DNA of 64,000 bases from Nitrospinaceae bacterium (GTDB taxonomy: Bacteria > Nitrospinota_A > UBA7883 > JAJDBK01): assembly GCA_029261405.1 (NCBI GenBank), contig JAJDBK010000056.1:1-64000 (forward strand). Reading direction: 5' to 3'. The notes below the pieces were generated by a model, which worked only from the letters and a program-made list of their open reading frames with translations, was not told the origin of the DNA and did not search any database. The position numbers and the translations under genes were made by a program. Positions 31,201 through 38,403 of this stretch are shown one piece after another; the first letter of the stretch is position 1; every line of letters begins with the position of its first letter.

Positions 31201-31658
31201 ACGATTTCCCACAGTTTATCGAGGACAACCTCAAGAAAGTCGGGCTGGCCCCGGAATATTTTTGTGTGGAGATAACGGAAAGCGGTGTCATGGCGGACCT
31301 CGAGCAGGCCATGGACAACCTGAGCGCAATCCGGGCGATGGGTGTAAAGATTTCCGTGGATGATTTCGGGACCGGCTACTCCTCTTTGAGTTACTTGAGG
31401 ATGTTGCCGATTGACGAGTTGAAAATTGATAGATCTTTTATAAAAAACCTGGATTTGAGTGAAGAGGAGTCGGCCATCACAAGCGCTATCGTGAAAATGG
31501 CGCATACCCTTAAACTCAAGGTGGTAGCCGAAGGGGTCGAAACGAAAGAACAGCTCGACATCATCAGATCTGTAGATTGCGATATTGTGCAAGGTTATTA
31601 CTACAGCCGACCTGTTCCAGCCGAAGAGATGGAAACTCTCCTCAAAAATGGTTTTTAA
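28272..31658 (+). CDS. Multi-PAS/GAF sensor with GGDEF and EAL domains
   Basis: 1128-aa cytosolic c-di-GMP enzyme: PAS (about 20-140), PAS (145-270), PAS (275-395), GAF (400-570), PAS (575-695), GGDEF (700-860) and EAL (875-1125). No TM segment is seen. The GGDEF loop reads HSGDEF, an accepted variant, so cyclase activity is possible. The EAL half keeps ESLVRW, EITES, DDFGTGYSS and VAEGVET, so phosphodiesterase activity is likely. The GAF domain has an unusual cysteine cluster (CMERKLCSCCVNGNDSC, five Cys in 17 residues) that could bind metal or sense redox. PAS domains may hold heme or flavin. No receiver or kinase domain is present. Confidence 0.92.
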   Translation: MTEQKTSGKLSYDERLKEAEKALRESEDKYNALLESAYDAIFVADATTGLILECNSSAERLLGRPKAEIIGLHQSRLHPPEEVKRYSALFRQHIESGVEPNEIFFVLRSSGEKIPVDIRAKVIELGGKKIIQGNFRNITEQLRIKNDLQTALALHEKIMASVNDGIFTMDLDGVFTFANKQALQVTGYSPDELKGKHYATLFPAKYIDDGEKLFKSVIETSEKVENFPTKIVKKDGVIRTVNLNLSPLMEGGVVTNVVGTAEDITGRRRAEDELTRSKALLQSVLDNSTNVIYVKDIEGRYLLINSWYETLFHVTKERVVGKTDYDIFPRDMADAFRENDRKVIDKNGPMEFEEIAPHDDGSHTYVSMKFPIYDRYNEIYAVCGISTDITWRKASEEKISSNARILQTIASAQAHLIADADPSDVFSEIIETIRQLTGSVNGFIGEILYDDNGRACMERKLCSCCVNGNDSCQLFDGFVKGEGKFAGMNRLHDPVLNSGELALSDPVPDEGSVGSVFAALPFRKGNKLVGMVGLVRRNVAYAPEIINTLQPLLETCSTIVVEFRHEEEKKQNERSLEIAAQVFKSAEEGVLVSDKDGVILFVNPAFTTITGYTLEEAVGNTPAILRSHRHEKSYYKNLWGDLITTGRWKGEIWNRRKNGELYLQKMTITASRDEKGAITQYASVFHDITDQRKAEEEIEFRAYHDALTGLANRTLFKDRLTKAISSAHRDETIMAVMFLDIDNFKNVNDTHGHAVGDMLLKGVALRLHEVLREEDTVSRHSGDEFTVLVESIGNENDAVLIAQKINKTLAEPFTQKGSDLVVTASLGVSLYPSDGEDPETLIKHADTAMYHAKEKGKNNYQLFDREMNKRVAHRLTMENDLRGAIDKGELEVFYQPKVSVSDQIICGWESLVRWRKQDGSMVSPAEFIPLAEETGLIFQIDEFVVADACKTAKSWINKGLTKGEVSINFSARRLDRHDFPQFIEDNLKKVGLAPEYFCVEITESGVMADLEQAMDNLSAIRAMGVKISVDDFGTGYSSLSYLRMLPIDELKIDRSFIKNLDLSEEESAITSAIVKMAHTLKLKVVAEGVETKEQLDIIRSVDCDIVQGYYYSRPVPAEEMETLLKNGF

Positions 31659-31692: not shown

Positions 31693-32496
31693 ATGAGGGA
31701 ACTTTTAGGTCCGAATCGGTGTTCTATATGTATGGAAGATTTTTCAGAAGAGTGTGATTCGGTCCGTGACCAGCTGTGGGATTTTGCCATTTACGGGGAA
31801 GTTTCGCACGACGGTCATACTGAACGCCACCTGAGCATCTGCCCCTCCTGCTCTTTGGAACTTCAAACGATCCGAAAAATCAGGGGAGGACTAAACAACC
31901 CTCCGGGGTTTCAGGTAGATATCGTTGAAAAGAGGGTTATCGAAAAAGCCGTGTCGAGGGTTAGCCCTCGTCCCCGCTCCATGATTCGACTTGTCGTGGC
32001 AATGGCCGCTCTGGCGGTTTTTGCGTTGGTGGCTTTATGGCCGAAGCCGACCGACGCTGTCCGGCTCGACGCCTATTTCGGACGACATATCCAATGTGAA
32101 AAAGGTGGAGAGCATAAAGGCTACTCCTGCGTCACCCATATGCAACTTGCCGCCAAGACCGCGCAAAGCCTCGGACTTGAAGCAGAGCCGATAACCGATA
32201 ACGATAAACTTTTTGTGAAAGGCGATGTCTGCTCTGTCAACGGAGATATGACAGCGCACGCTATCTACAAATCAAAAAACGGATTAATCTCATCGTTTAC
32301 ACTAAAAGGTAATATAGACTTGGCGTCTTTAAAGGATGTCGAAAAAGTCGCCGATGGTTTCTGGGGCCGCTCTGTGGCGGGCTATCAGATGTTAATCAAA
32401 AAACTGCCAGGTTCAAGGTACCTGATCGTCGTATCGTCGATCTCGCTTGATGACCTGGTCGAGTTTCTACGTTCAGAAAAAAGGAGTTCTACATGA
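31693..32496 (+). CDS. Membrane-bound zinc anti-sigma factor-like protein
   Basis: 267 aa. The N-terminal cytosolic domain has RCSICMEDF and a HxxxCxxC-like motif (HLSICPSC, about 59-66), the mark of zinc-binding anti-sigma domains. One TM follows at about 97-117 (LVVAMAALAVFALVALW), then a periplasmic domain of about 150 residues with three cysteines (IQCEKGG, YSCVTH, DVCSVNG). The ECF sigma gene 0.9 kb downstream is the natural partner. The stop overlaps the CYCYC-protein start (ATGA), tying the two together. The periplasmic Cys residues suggest redox or metal sensing; this is inference. Confidence 0.75.
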   Translation: MRELLGPNRCSICMEDFSEECDSVRDQLWDFAIYGEVSHDGHTERHLSICPSCSLELQTIRKIRGGLNNPPGFQVDIVEKRVIEKAVSRVSPRPRSMIRLVVAMAALAVFALVALWPKPTDAVRLDAYFGRHIQCEKGGEHKGYSCVTHMQLAAKTAQSLGLEAEPITDNDKLFVKGDVCSVNGDMTAHAIYKSKNGLISSFTLKGNIDLASLKDVEKVADGFWGRSVAGYQMLIKKLPGSRYLIVVSSISLDDLVEFLRSEKRSST

Positions 32497-32912
32497 AAAA
32501 AGCGGTTATAACCCTACTTTTGTTCGCAATGGCTTTTTCCGCCGGTTTCTCTTACGCCCAGTCGAGAAAGTTAGGCGCCCAGATAATGCAACAGAACATG
32601 CTCGAATCCACATCAATGAATGAAACGCGGGCCACTCAGGAGCCCGCCATGTATGCGTCAAACGAGTTCGTTTATAAAGCGTATCAAATTGCGAAAGAGA
32701 TCCCGGAACTTATCGACAAGGTTTTCTGCTACTGCTACTGCGCCATGAATCCGAAGTTCAAGCACAAATCGCTCTTGACCTGCTACGTCGATTCGCACGC
32801 TTCGCAATGCGGTATCTGTATGCGTCAGACTTTCGGGACAAAGCGGATGGCCGAAGAAGGGAAGTCGTCCGAAGAAATCGCCAAGGTTTTCAGAGACATG
32901 TACTTGAAGTGA
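32493..32912 (+). CDS. Exported CYCYC-motif protein (PCYCGC family)
   Basis: 139 aa with a Sec signal peptide (KKAVITLLLFAMAFSAGFSYAQ region). The C-terminal half carries FCYCYCAMNPKFKHKSLLTC, H-A-S-QCGICM and EEGKSSEEI, matching the PCYCGC-motif family, in which the central motif is normally CYCGC; here Tyr replaces Gly. The four to seven cysteines and conserved His suggest metal (copper-like) or heme-related binding outside the cytoplasm. Members often lie near copper, heme or cytochrome assembly genes. Translationally coupled to the anti-sigma gene upstream. Exact role unknown. Confidence 0.75.
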   Translation: MKKAVITLLLFAMAFSAGFSYAQSRKLGAQIMQQNMLESTSMNETRATQEPAMYASNEFVYKAYQIAKEIPELIDKVFCYCYCAMNPKFKHKSLLTCYVDSHASQCGICMRQTFGTKRMAEEGKSSEEIAKVFRDMYLK

Positions 32913-32939
32913 TTTTGACTGCAAAAAACTTTCTCACCT

Positions 32940-33316
32940 GTGAGTCGAACGGGGGGCCTGCTGATTCTGGTCTGTCTCCCCGCGTTCGGCCCGGCGACCT
33001 CCACAGCGCAGACCCGGGAGCTACCGCAACAGACCGACCGCATACTAAAAACGTTCCCGGAAGAGAGTTGCGAGACTCTGTTGAGAAGATCGGAAGGGTT
33101 CTAATCGCAACCCCGACCGGTTCGCAGATACCGTTGAGCCAGGTGGCGAGCATAAAGGTAAGCAACGGTCCGCCGGTCCTGAAGACAGAGAATTCGAGAC
33201 TCAACGCCTGGATTTTTGTGGATATCGAAGATATCGACGTGTGGGCTTATGTGATGGCCGCCCAACAGGCTGTGGCGGAGAATGTAAAAATTCCTCCAGG
33301 TGTTGCGGTCAAGTAG
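32940..33316 (+). pseudogene. Remnant of a CusA-type heavy-metal efflux RND pump
   Basis: Two out-of-register pieces of an RND metal pump are fused. Frame one (32940-33104) includes PQQTDRILKTFPE, matching the central porter region of CusA/CzcA. A second frame from about 33058 to the TAG at 33316 reads RDSVEKIGRVLIATPTGSQ, IPLSQVASIKVSNGPP and KIPPGVAVK, matching a segment about 200 residues later in those pumps. The intervening region, the other roughly 900 residues and all TM helices are missing, so it cannot work as a pump. It lies between the CYCYC gene and the sigma gene, presumably left by recombination. Confidence 0.75.
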
Positions 33317-33367
33317 AATCTGTTATGTTTACTGAGGAGTTCCGATACCAAACAGCAATAACAGAGA

Positions 33368-33829
33368 ATGACAGACCGGGAAAAGTTCGAGCTATATATC
33401 CTGCCCCATTCAAAGGGTTTGACTGTATCGGCCTATCGACTGACCGGCAACAGTCTTGACGCGGAGGATCTGGCGCAGGAGACCCTTTTTCTCGCATACA
33501 AAAACATCGGCAAGCTCAAAGATACCAGGAATCCACGACCATGGATTTTCACCATAATGAAAAACCGCTTCCTGAACGATCTGCGAGCTAATAAGATAAA
33601 GGAAGTTCCGCTGAACGATTCGCCTGTACAGGAGGAGAATCGGATAAAAGATGATGTACAGGAGGTTTTAAGCGCTCTGCCCGGAGAGATGCGACTTATC
33701 CTTACCGCCAGAGAGCTGATGGGGCTTAGCTACAAGGAAATATCCAAAACCATGCGAATACCTGAAGGTACGGTCAAAAGCCGGATCAAACGCGCAAGGG
33801 AAAAACTCAAGGAGATGTGGGACAGATGA
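33368..33829 (+). CDS. ECF (group IV) RNA polymerase sigma factor
   Basis: 153 aa with only sigma regions 2 and 4. Region 2 has YRLTGNSLDAEDLAQETLF and RPWIFTIMKNRFLNDLRAN. Region 4 has LPGEMRLILTARELMGLSYKEISK and IPEGTVKSRIKRAREKL as its helix-turn-helix. Like other ECF factors it should direct polymerase to a small regulon under control of an anti-sigma factor, most likely the zinc membrane protein at 31693-32496. The stop overlaps the start of the cytochrome gene (ATGA), so the cytochrome is cotranslated and probably part of the response. Confidence 0.92.
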   Translation: MTDREKFELYILPHSKGLTVSAYRLTGNSLDAEDLAQETLFLAYKNIGKLKDTRNPRPWIFTIMKNRFLNDLRANKIKEVPLNDSPVQEENRIKDDVQEVLSALPGEMRLILTARELMGLSYKEISKTMRIPEGTVKSRIKRAREKLKEMWDR

Positions 33830-34302
33830 AAAAAAACTCTTTGCTGGCGCTAGGTGTTGCGCTCATATTGATCTCTTGCGATCAGGTTAAAGAGGCCAAA
33901 CAGGCTATCGGCGCCATCGAAGCAAAGAAAGCGGTAAAGTCGGCCATAAAACGTGTCATCAACGAAAAACGAATAACAAACGGTGAAAAGATTTTCGCTG
34001 AATATTGCGCATACTGTCACGGAAAAGCCGCCGAAGGCGATCCTGACTGGAAAACTCAGGGTCCGACCGGGATACTCTCCCCTCCCCCGCTAAACGGCTC
34101 CGGCCACGCCTGGCATCACTCCATGTCCGTCCTTTTCAACTACATAAAGGACGGCTCCCTTGCCAAAGGGGGTTCCATGGCGCCTTATGCAACAACATTA
34201 AGCGACCGGGAAATAAAAGATGTTATCGCCTGGTTCCAGTCGAAATGGCCGGATGAAATATATAACGCCTGGGCCGAGACCAACCAGCGGGATAAAAAAT
34301 AG
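33826..34302 (+). CDS. Lipoprotein monoheme cytochrome c
   Basis: Class I c-type cytochrome of 158 aa anchored by an N-terminal lipid: signal peptide with lipobox LISC (Cys about 17), a helical spacer (residues 20-50), then a single CAYCH heme site (about 63-67). A candidate Met ligand lies in GGSMAPYATTLSD, with the C-terminal helix ELKDVIAW-like (here EIKDVIAWFQ). It resembles small c6/cbb3-type electron shuttles. ATG 33826 has AAGGAG at 33809-33814 and overlaps the sigma stop. Its linkage to an ECF sigma suggests induction under the same signal. Confidence 0.9.
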   Translation: MKKNSLLALGVALILISCDQVKEAKQAIGAIEAKKAVKSAIKRVINEKRITNGEKIFAEYCAYCHGKAAEGDPDWKTQGPTGILSPPPLNGSGHAWHHSMSVLFNYIKDGSLAKGGSMAPYATTLSDREIKDVIAWFQSKWPDEIYNAWAETNQRDKK

Positions 34303-34371: not shown

Positions 34372-34389
34372 TTAGTGAGGGTCCTGAAT

Positions 34390-35627: not shown

Positions 35628-36404
35628 ATGAATGATAACGACACACTAACCATCGCGGGTAGAAGTTTTAGCTCCCGCCTTCTAATGGGAACCGGCAAGT
35701 TCCGCTCCCCCGAAGAGATGAGCAAATCCCTCGACGCATCAGGCACACAGATCGTAACGGTGGCCTTGCGCAGGGTTGATCTGGATGATCCGCAGGATCA
35801 TATCTTAAGCTACGTCGATAGATCAAAATACCTGATTCTCCCCAATACATCCGGGGCCAGAAACGCTGGGGAGGCTGTCCGGCTCGCACGCCTTGCAAGA
35901 GCGGCTGGTGTCTCTGACTGGGTAAAACTTGAAGTCACACCCGAACCGCGCTATCTTCTCCCCGACCCTGTAGAGACACTAAAGGCCGCTGAAATACTCG
36001 TGAAAGACGGGTTCAAAGTGCTTCCATATATAAACGCCGATCCTGTGCTGGCAAAACGTCTTGAGGATGTCGGCGTGGTTACCGTCATGCCGTTAGGTTC
36101 ACCCATTGGATCAAACCGGGGAATCAAGACCGCAGTCTCCATTCAGATTATTATTGAACAAGCCACTGTTCCGGTAGTGGTGGACGCTGGATTGGGCGCT
36201 CCATCCCACGCCGCCGAAGCTCTGGAAATGGGGGCCGACGCTGTTCTTGTCAACACCGCCATTGCGGTGGCGAATGACCCGGAGCTTATGGCGACCGCTT
36301 TTTCTAACGGCGTTACCGCTGGACGGCAAGGTTATCTGGCGGGGCTTGGCAAAAAACTTCTGGTCGCTGAAGCTTCAAGCCCTGTGACCGGGCTTCCCTG
36401 GTAA
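35628..36404 (+). CDS. thiG: Thiazole synthase
   Basis: Forms the thiazole phosphate moiety of thiamine from 1-deoxyxylulose 5-phosphate, dehydroglycine (from ThiH) and the ThiS thiocarboxylate; a TIM barrel. Features: [17 protein letters not shown], the Schiff-base Lys in [29 protein letters not shown] and [30 protein letters not shown] (read in parts). Length 258 aa is standard. No Shine-Dalgarno is obvious, but a 27-bp palindrome lies just upstream. First gene of thiG-thiH-thiS-thiE. Confidence 0.97.
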
Positions 36405-36420
36405 TCCAGGTAATGGTCAG

Positions 36421-37560
36421 ATGAGTTTTCTTCATACGGTAGAATATCTGAACAGCGGAATCATCGACTCCGCCGTTGCCAAAATCGAAACCCTCTCGGA
36501 ACAAGATGTTCTAAAAGCCCTTGAAAGGATACCGGTTACCCCTGAAGGTTTCATGGCCCTTCTCTCCCGGCAAGCGGACGCTCTTACAAGCGACATTGAG
36601 ATCCTCGCCAGAGAGCTGACGGCTCAAAGATTCGGCAGGGTGGTCAACCTCTACATACCTCTTTACCTGACCAATTCATGTATAAACAACTGTCTCTACT
36701 GCGGGTTCGGATCAAAGCGGGAAGTTCAACGCAAAACGCTGACCCTCAATGAAATAGCCCTCGAATGCCAGCGTTTGTTACAGGAAGGTTACAAAAGTCT
36801 TCTGCTTGTCGCCGGAGAGGATAAACGCTGGGCTCCTGTGAAATATATCGAATCGGCCATTAAACTTGCAAAAAAGCTGGGATTCGTCTTCGTAGCTATC
36901 GAGGCTGGCCCCATGACCGAAGAGGAGTACCGCGTACTGTGCAACGCTGGCCTTGATGGGGTGACAGTTTATCAAGAGACATACGAGATCGAGACATACA
37001 GGAAAGTTCACCCTTCAGGACCGAAAAAAGATTATAAATACAGGCTCGACACACCAGAGAGGGCGGCGCGAGCTGGGGTTCGATCAGTTGGAATCGGTTT
37101 TCTTCTCGGTCTGGCCGACTTCAGGAAAGAGTCTCTTTTCCTTGGCGCCCACATAAAATATCTGCGAAAAAAATATTGGCAAACCTCAATCGCCGTAAGT
37201 TTTCCGAGAATCCATGAAACTCCATCCGGGTTTTCACCAGCCCACCCTGTATCGGACAGTGAACTTGTCCAGATTATTCTTGCAGTGAGGCTGGCGAATC
37301 CCGATGCTGTCCTGACCCTTTCAACAAGAGAGGCGTCAGCCTTGCGCGATCGTCTCTTCGGGGCCGGGATAAATCAGGTTAGCGCAGGCTCGAAAACAAG
37401 CCCCGGGGCTTATATTGTCGATCCAGCAGGAAACCAGGCCGCAAAGCAGTTTCCTGTTGTCGATGACCGCACTCCCGCCGAAGTGATCGACGCTATCAGA
37501 AAGAGAGGGCTGGAGTGGGTTTTTAAAGACTGGGACCTTAACCTGCGACCTGTTTCCTGA
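36421..37560 (+). CDS. thiH: 2-iminoacetate synthase (radical SAM)
   Basis: Cleaves tyrosine with SAM to give dehydroglycine (2-iminoacetate) and p-cresol for the thiazole of thiamine. The radical-SAM cluster motif CINNCLYCGF (about residues 86-95) follows VNLYIPLYLTN, typical of ThiH. The later stretch VTVYQETYE, HPSGPKKDY and the C-terminal TREAS and AGSKTSPG blocks agree. Length 379 aa is normal. It follows thiG by 16 bp. Use of ThiH rather than the glycine oxidase ThiO implies an oxygen-sensitive route and fits micro-oxic or anaerobic growth. Confidence 0.96.
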   Translation: MSFLHTVEYLNSGIIDSAVAKIETLSEQDVLKALERIPVTPEGFMALLSRQADALTSDIEILARELTAQRFGRVVNLYIPLYLTNSCINNCLYCGFGSKREVQRKTLTLNEIALECQRLLQEGYKSLLLVAGEDKRWAPVKYIESAIKLAKKLGFVFVAIEAGPMTEEEYRVLCNAGLDGVTVYQETYEIETYRKVHPSGPKKDYKYRLDTPERAARAGVRSVGIGFLLGLADFRKESLFLGAHIKYLRKKYWQTSIAVSFPRIHETPSGFSPAHPVSDSELVQIILAVRLANPDAVLTLSTREASALRDRLFGAGINQVSAGSKTSPGAYIVDPAGNQAAKQFPVVDDRTPAEVIDAIRKRGLEWVFKDWDLNLRPVS

Positions 37561-37567
37561 CCATATA

Positions 37568-37765
37568 ATGAAAATAATCCTTAACGGCAAAATAACCGAT
37601 ATTTCCGCATCGGACTCTGCAAAGGGGCTGATTGAAAAACTCGGTCTTAAAGGACCCGTAGCGGTTCAGATCAATGAAGAGATTTTTCCTTTCCATAAAC
37701 TTGACGAAGTCTCTCTCAAGGAAAACGATACCGTCGAGATATTCACCATGTTAGGTGGCGGTTGA
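37568..37765 (+). CDS. thiS: Thiamine sulfur-carrier protein
   Basis: Ubiquitin-like 65-aa carrier whose C-terminal Gly-Gly (MLGGG) is adenylated and converted to a thiocarboxylate that donates sulfur to ThiG. The beta-grasp pattern with NDTVEIFTMLGGG at the end is characteristic. The gene lies between thiH and thiE and overlaps thiE (TTGA). No thiF adenylyltransferase is in the window, so activation must use a MoeB/ThiF-like protein encoded elsewhere. Confidence 0.95.
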   Translation: MKIILNGKITDISASDSAKGLIEKLGLKGPVAVQINEEIFPFHKLDEVSLKENDTVEIFTMLGGG

Positions 37766-38403
37766 AAAAATTATACTCCTTTGCCGATGTGGACCTTTAT
37801 CCTGTCACTGGTCGTGAACACTTCGCTGGCAGACAGGATGAAGAGGTTATCGCCGCCCTTGCTCAAGGTGGCGCGAAGATCGTCCAGTTGAGGGATAAAA
37901 ACCTCACTGACCGCGAATATTACCGGTTATCGCTCCTCTATCGCCGCGAAACCGACAAACATGGGCTTTTGTTCATTGTTAATGATCGGCCTGACATCGC
38001 GCTGGCTGTTAGGGCCGACGGAATTCATCTTGGGCGGTCAGACCTGCCGGTATCTGTCGCCCGAACGATTTTGGGGCCTGACGCCATTATCGGCGCTTCA
38101 TCCAATACTCCCGCCACAGCGAAAGAACTCGAAAAATCGGGCGCCACCTATATAAATATCGGCCCACTATTCCCGACCCCAACCAAACCTGACGCAAAAA
38201 ATATCGGGCTGAAACCGTTACGTATAGCTATTGAAAACGCCGGGATTCCCATATCAACCATGGGGGGAATAACCGCCGACAATATTGATGAGGTTTTATC
38301 AACCGGCGTAAAACACGTTGGTGTTGTCACTGCTGTTTTCGCTGGAGCCGACATCACAAAGGCAGTCTCCTTTTTTGTTAAGAGAATAGTTTCGGCCCGT
38401 TAA
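37762..38403 (+). CDS. thiE: Thiamine-phosphate synthase
   Basis: Joins HMP pyrophosphate and thiazole phosphate to thiamine phosphate; TIM barrel. Motifs: KIVQLRDKNLTDREY, FIVNDRPDIALAVRADGIHLG, IIGASSNTP and YINIGPLFPTPTK, then STMGGITADN. Length 213 aa is typical. TTG start overlaps the thiS stop by four bases. Last gene of the thi operon; no thiC or thiD is seen. Confidence 0.96.
   Translation: MKKLYSFADVDLYPVTGREHFAGRQDEEVIAALAQGGAKIVQLRDKNLTDREYYRLSLLYRRETDKHGLLFIVNDRPDIALAVRADGIHLGRSDLPVSVARTILGPDAIIGASSNTPATAKELEKSGATYINIGPLFPTPTKPDAKNIGLKPLRIAIENAGIPISTMGGITADNIDEVLSTGVKHVGVVTAVFAGADITKAVSFFVKRIVSAR

Follow-up and report, generated by a model that had tools for sequence, protein, structure and literature searches.

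Introduction

Most of what is known of heavy-metal pumps under ECF control concerns nickel and cobalt, as in the cnrYXH-cnrCBAT cluster of Cupriavidus metallidurans (Ni/Co), in which sigma-dependent promoters precede both the anti-sigma gene (cnrYp) and the pump (cnrCp) (PMC9045368). For copper, the ECF case in the reviewed literature is CorE of Myxococcus xanthus, a sigma factor for copper homeostasis that senses copper via a Cys-rich C-terminal extension and has no anti-sigma factor (PMC3107203; PMC10141476). SigF-NrsF of Caulobacter crescentus is an ECF sigma system involved in the heavy-metal response (PMC3511200), and its likeness to the present locus, that of an ECF sigma factor tied to heavy metals, is one of description only.

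The locus presented here is probably a rearranged and partly deleted copy of an ECF-sigma-controlled efflux operon, for which we infer Cu(I)/Ag(I) as the metal from sequence comparison. An ancestral order of sigma, anti-sigma, CYCXC, cusC, cusB and cusA explains it best. The earlier note could match these exact genes to no named system, and within the literature searched this holds; the known kind of which the set is a deleted, rearranged form is heavy-metal RND efflux under ECF control, with cnrYXH-cnrCBA as an example.

Organization of the locus

The window, meaning the whole stretch of 64,000 nucleotides that was analysed, comprises positions 1-64000 of contig C56 in a Nitrospinota genome (G000). 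All genes of the locus lie on the + strand, in the order anti-sigma, CYCXC, cusA fragments, ECF sigma and lipoprotein cytochrome c, flanked upstream by a GGDEF/EAL protein ending at 31658 and downstream by an unknown protein at 34375.

31698..31723, + strand: ECF-type promoter, GGAACTTTT-N13-TGTT, ahead of the anti-sigma and CYCXC genes
31732..32496, + strand: membrane anti-sigma factor with a zinc anti-sigma domain, one TM span and a periplasmic Cys/His domain
32493..32912, + strand: CYCXC-family periplasmic protein (PF13798/NF041379)
32919..33062, + strand: decayed cusA fragment, approximately CusA residues 556-593 (tblastn)
33059..33313, + strand: cusA fragment, approximately residues 764-848, in a different frame from the first (tblastn, Pfam ACR_tran)
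33368..33829, + strand: ECF sigma factor (Sigma70_r2 and r4_2)
33826..34302, + strand: lipoprotein mono-haem cytochrome c of the type found in copper clusters (Cytochrome_CBB3, lipobox)

All four open reading frames listed in the earlier note were found, as were the ATGA overlaps it described between anti-sigma and CYCXC (32493-32496) and between sigma and cytochrome (33826-33829). The overlaps had been read as two coupled pairs lying side by side; what that reading missed is, most likely, the common origin of the genes in one operon that has since lost its pump genes. Further downstream in the window (35628-38403), thiG-, thiH-, thiS- and thiE-like ORFs, recognised by eye only, form an apparent thiamine synthesis run unrelated to the sigma locus.

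Intact operons in related genomes

In G001, a complete genome from the same order and a different family, the gene order is M3 peptidase, response regulator, BFD ferredoxin, sigma, anti-sigma, CYCXC, cusC, cusB and cusA. A second contig of the window's own genome, C54, carries an intact sigma, anti-sigma, cusC, cusB and cusA operon without CYCXC, more distant from the window set and also with the promoter element described below. The G011 operon runs from sigma through anti-sigma, cusC and cusB to the start of cusA, where the contig ends. In G002, the sigma factor closest to that of the window stands at a contig end, after genes for a peptidase and two response regulators, and cusC, cusB and cusA lie behind the same promoter element on a separate contig. 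No further gene lies between sigma and anti-sigma in G001, C54 and G011, and CYCXC at most lies between anti-sigma and pump. A search of the phylum around G054 was uninformative, as only one genome was in scope.

One end of the region around the C54 copy (L039, G000 C54:11000-22068) is marked by a transposase-like ORF. Downstream of the pump genes come a gene for a Met/His-rich protein, preceded by an ECF-type promoter of its own, and one for an HD-GYP protein whose CxxC-rich N-terminus resembles a metal-binding domain.

The pumps of the relatives belong to the CusA/CzcA family (TIGR00914, 1202-1300 bits against a cut-off of 701). The C54 pump scores 1333 bits to E. coli CusA versus 575 to ZneA, and its alignment retains methionine at E. 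coli CusA positions M573, M623 and M672, the CusA methionine triad. Family membership and these methionines together identify a Cus-type Cu/Ag HME-RND pump; the adaptor in these operons matches CusB best and carries an HMBD. The operons thus resemble E. coli CusCFBA/CusRS in their CusA-type pump, CusB-like adaptor with HMBD and CusC-like outer-membrane factor, whereas an ECF sigma/anti-sigma pair takes the place of the two-component CusRS. No CusF was seen in them, and CYCXC stands in its place in G001.

Like cnr, these operons bring together an ECF sigma factor, a membrane-bound anti-sigma component and a heavy-metal RND pump. A conserved element also stands before both the anti-sigma and pump genes, and its use by this sigma factor is predicted. 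The cnr cluster differs in its two-protein CnrY/CnrX complex, its order YXH, its Ni/Co pump and its lack of CYCXC. Here, in contrast, a single anti-sigma factor has its own Cys/His domain, the intact operons open with the sigma gene and their pump is of the Cus type; a separate CnrX-type sensor gene was absent from the G001, C54 and G011 operons. The association of a Cus-type pump, intact or cut by a contig end, with sigma and anti-sigma in G001, G011 and C54, together with the shared promoter, supports the earlier proposal of a periplasmic metal-responsive ECF system.

A conserved promoter element

The search for a shared ECF promoter motif that the earlier note had recommended yielded the element GGAAC[AT][AT]TT-N12-14-TGTT upstream of homologous genes. 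It precedes the anti-sigma gene in the window (31698), G001, G011 and C54, and cusC in all five cases (G001, G011, G008, G002 and C54); the tenth site lies before the gene for the Met/His-rich protein downstream of C54 cusA. In a blind scan of 12 genomes, 10 of the 22 matches were these operon sites, including that of cusC in G002. The pattern has a background of about 1.6 per genome by dinucleotide simulation, a rough figure from six 1-Mb runs, and a reversed control pattern gave 0 to 4 matches per genome. The window copy is an exact match to the consensus and the sole match in the window at up to one mismatch (0.45 expected); the scan of the window found no promoter of the GGAAC-N-TGTT type before the local sigma gene. 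Other genome-wide hits that were inspected (C6, C78 and G010 C341) were not counted as sites, as they fall within coding sequence or on its opposite strand, or have no suitable start nearby. The element is of the kind expected for an ECF sigma factor, and its constant presence in the operons of this sigma factor suggests that it is the one that uses it.

Loss of the pump genes

The CusA remnant recognised in the earlier note is real and consists of two pieces, of which the downstream one has 61% identity over 84 residues to G001 CusA. It begins 7 bases after the CYCXC stop codon. The first piece, which includes QQTDRILKTFPE, matched the C54 and G001 CusA proteins by tblastn (E 1.6e-4 to 3.6e-4), and the second (33059..33313) scored 33.8 bits with Pfam ACR_tran. 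The remnant is closest to G001 CusA, with 51 of 86 residues identical versus 45-46 for C54 and G002, and its position right after CYCXC follows the G001 gene order. The first piece had also been considered as a cusC signal peptide, which its placement on CusA 556-593 rules out.

Intact cusC, cusB and cusA are absent from the window locus, where only the two cusA fragments occur. Because tblastn maps the sequence following CYCXC to CusA residues 556-593 and then 764-848, cusC, cusB and the first half of cusA were deleted directly after CYCXC; cusA has further undergone an internal deletion and lost its 3' end. The simplest history suggested by these comparisons is that an operon of the G001 type lost its pump and its sigma gene ended up downstream. 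The peptidase that precedes the G001 operon is found here on contig C45, with no response regulator, BFD or sigma gene adjoining.

The anti-sigma factor

The anti-sigma factor carries the zinc anti-sigma motif H-x3-C-x2-C (HLSICPSC) and one hydrophobic/TM span, both recognised by eye. These features, and the adjoining of its gene to sigma in G001, C54 and G011, are those of a zinc anti-sigma factor (class I); in the window the sigma gene is not adjacent, lying 0.9 kb downstream. The Pfam zf-HC2 score fell below cut-off, nonetheless homology to full-length anti-sigma factors is clear, so that motif, TM span and homologues agree with the earlier assignment as a zinc anti-sigma factor. Identity to the G001 anti-sigma is 27-29% (E 7.9e-27), and the two join in the tree with support of 99/98. 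Within the periplasmic domain H132, C135, C146, C180 and H189 (numbered from a start at 31693) are invariant in five of five sequences, which have only 23-27% identity to the window protein.

The start at 31693 proposed earlier is probably wrong, since the promoter conserved in the relatives occupies 31698-31723 and would fall inside the proposed N-terminus. The start is most likely the ATG at 31732, eight bases past the element, which the N-termini of homologues also fit. A gap of 8 bases cannot accommodate a ribosome-binding site, so the anti-sigma transcript in the window may be leaderless or its expression weak.

A search of genome_contigs for the sensor domain outside Nitrospinota, seeded with exact peptide patterns and so liable to miss distant relatives, returned just two records, both Nitrospinota, and none was found in plasmids. 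Among 385 sampled genomes, strong hits (E below 1e-100) were confined to four genomes of the same order, the window's own included, and the remaining hits were weak and mainly over the common zinc domain. A structure prediction of the anti-sigma factor was set aside given its mean pLDDT of 53 and uninformative Foldseek matches (best E 1.2e-3).

With pump, anti-sigma ribosome-binding site and original sigma position lost, the locus could be a decaying relic without function whose work is done by the C54 copy. Such a reading would account for the loss of cusC, cusB and most of cusA, for the different frames of the cusA fragments, for an anti-sigma 5' leader approximately 14-16 bases shorter than in G001, G011 and C54, and for the intact operon elsewhere in the same genome. 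We consider it rather unlikely, as four full-length ORFs retain the zinc motif, the sensor Cys/His residues, all CYCXC cysteines and the haem site, and the promoter still matches the consensus exactly.

The sigma factor

The window sigma factor is a plain ECF protein consisting of Sigma70 regions 2 and 4 only. Unlike CorE it is short and two-domain, without a Cys-rich extension. It is 54% identical to the G002 sigma factor on contig C190, 51% to that of C54 and 48% to that of G001; the sigma tree is poorly resolved, and by path G002 and G001 are nearest. A gene order unlike that of any relative, this weak tree placement and the paralogous sigma/anti-sigma pair on C54 would all fit a chance juxtaposition, in which anti-sigma/CYCXC and sigma/cytochrome are unrelated neighbours and the sigma factor answers to another anti-sigma. 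That is very improbable in our estimation, given that the nearest relatives of the sigma factor (G002, G001, C54 and G011) all lie in this operon family or its upstream context, and a single rearranged operon remains the preferred reading.

The window's own genome (G000) encodes another ECF sigma/anti-sigma pair on contig C79 (L106:7033-8296), its sigma 41% identical to the window sigma and its anti-sigma with a different periplasmic domain; the pair is conserved in G002 (L108).

The CYCXC protein

The 32493 protein scores 90 bits with NF041379, 'CYCXC family (seleno)protein', exactly at the cut-off of 90, and 39.5 bits with PF13798 PCYCGC (cut-off 25). It belongs to the CYCXC / OS_HP4 selenoprotein family (PMC13188914), whose UxxC site aligns with C106-x2-C109; compared with the selenoprotein form it carries Cys rather than Sec. 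C79, C81, C83, C97, C106, C109, H91 and H102 are invariant. The predicted structure is a confident helical model (pLDDT 89.8) for which no solved structure similar in fold or in sequence was found. As in the window, the CYCXC start overlaps the anti-sigma end in G001, the one other genome with this coupling, and there too CYCXC follows the conserved promoter element. Most of the order carries CYCXC without a sigma system, often adjoining BFD and M3 peptidase genes, so that the protein was probably recruited to the operon. The literature searched contained no link between CYCXC and a sigma/anti-sigma copper operon. A putative part for CYCXC in the circuit would be to carry metal on its thiols in the periplasm or to serve as a redox partner.

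Other CYCXC neighbourhoods vary. Conserved arrangements of M3 peptidase, BFD ferredoxin or response regulator and CYCXC occur in G004, G010 and G003 (L042, L046 and L043), genomes in which the anti-sigma was not found. A TlpA/ResA-like thiol-disulfide oxidoreductase gene directly adjoins CYCXC in G018 (L115:6030-7182). CYCXC genes with an in-frame TGA occur at L114 (G055 C402) and L017/L113 (G054 C173); in L114 the TGA is at the C106 position, the selenoprotein form, with Rieske/cytochrome bc-type genes adjoining, and in L113 a multihaem cytochrome gene lies beside the TGA-containing gene.

The cytochrome

The last gene encodes a mono-haem Cytochrome_CBB3-type c protein with the lipobox LISC. 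No good homologue was found in relatives from the same order, and the intact operons also lack it. Among ten plasmid loci with homologues, chosen from the best 17 matches and not at random, nine are copper-resistance clusters and one is not; neighbours in the nine include genes for multicopper oxidase, DUF411, CopB/C/D, PCu(A)C, CueR or heavy-metal P-type ATPase. Because same-order homologues are missing and the plasmid relatives sit with copper genes, the cytochrome is most likely of a copper type, acquired locally and coupled to sigma by ATGA. The earlier idea that the sigma system controls its own electron carrier is not supported for the cytochrome as a conserved target, the core of the system being the Cus pump, and a stand-alone four-gene system was ruled out, as the cytochrome is not conserved and the conserved context is the pump operon.

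An alternative is a redox or thiol-stress system, with disulfide sensing by the zinc anti-sigma, CYCXC and cytochrome as redox partners, and metal efflux incidental. CYCXC is indeed a Cys/Sec family, found next to the TlpA-like protein in G018 and, in its TGA-containing form, to bc-complex genes in G055. This is nevertheless quite unlikely: a Cus pump is linked in every sigma/anti-sigma operon of the family whose flanks are long enough to show it, all five cusC genes have the promoter before them, and relatives of the cytochrome accompany copper genes.

Proposed mechanism and implications

If the locus derives from a copper/silver efflux operon, the membrane anti-sigma would hold the sigma factor via its N-terminal zinc domain until excess periplasmic Cu(I)/Ag(I) bound the conserved Cys/His residues of its C-terminal domain and released it. 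This is the most likely signal, inferred because a Cu/Ag-type pump is the constant partner. Freed sigma would transcribe anti-sigma, as negative feedback, together with CYCXC and cusCBA from GGAAC-N-TGTT promoters. In the window genome, with the local pump gone and an intact paralogous sigma/anti-sigma/cusCBA set on C54, the local sigma lies downstream of the promoter, and read-through may bring it and the cytochrome onto one transcript, an arrangement that would create positive feedback.

More tentatively, the family may represent a new copper/silver sensor, in which a single-chain anti-sigma would bind Cu(I)/Ag(I) through its periplasmic H-x2-C...C...C...H domain and free an ECF sigma driving the Cus pump and CYCXC as metal carrier. 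A Cus pump governed by a sigma/anti-sigma switch, whose promoter can be read in the sequence, lends itself to direct testing. The window would also hold a regulatory module that outlived its pump, its sigma now downstream of its own promoter. For CYCXC, to which the sources found assign no function, the operon offers a first functional context, and if the proposal is true this uncharacterised CYCXC/PCYCGC selenoprotein family would gain a role in copper handling.
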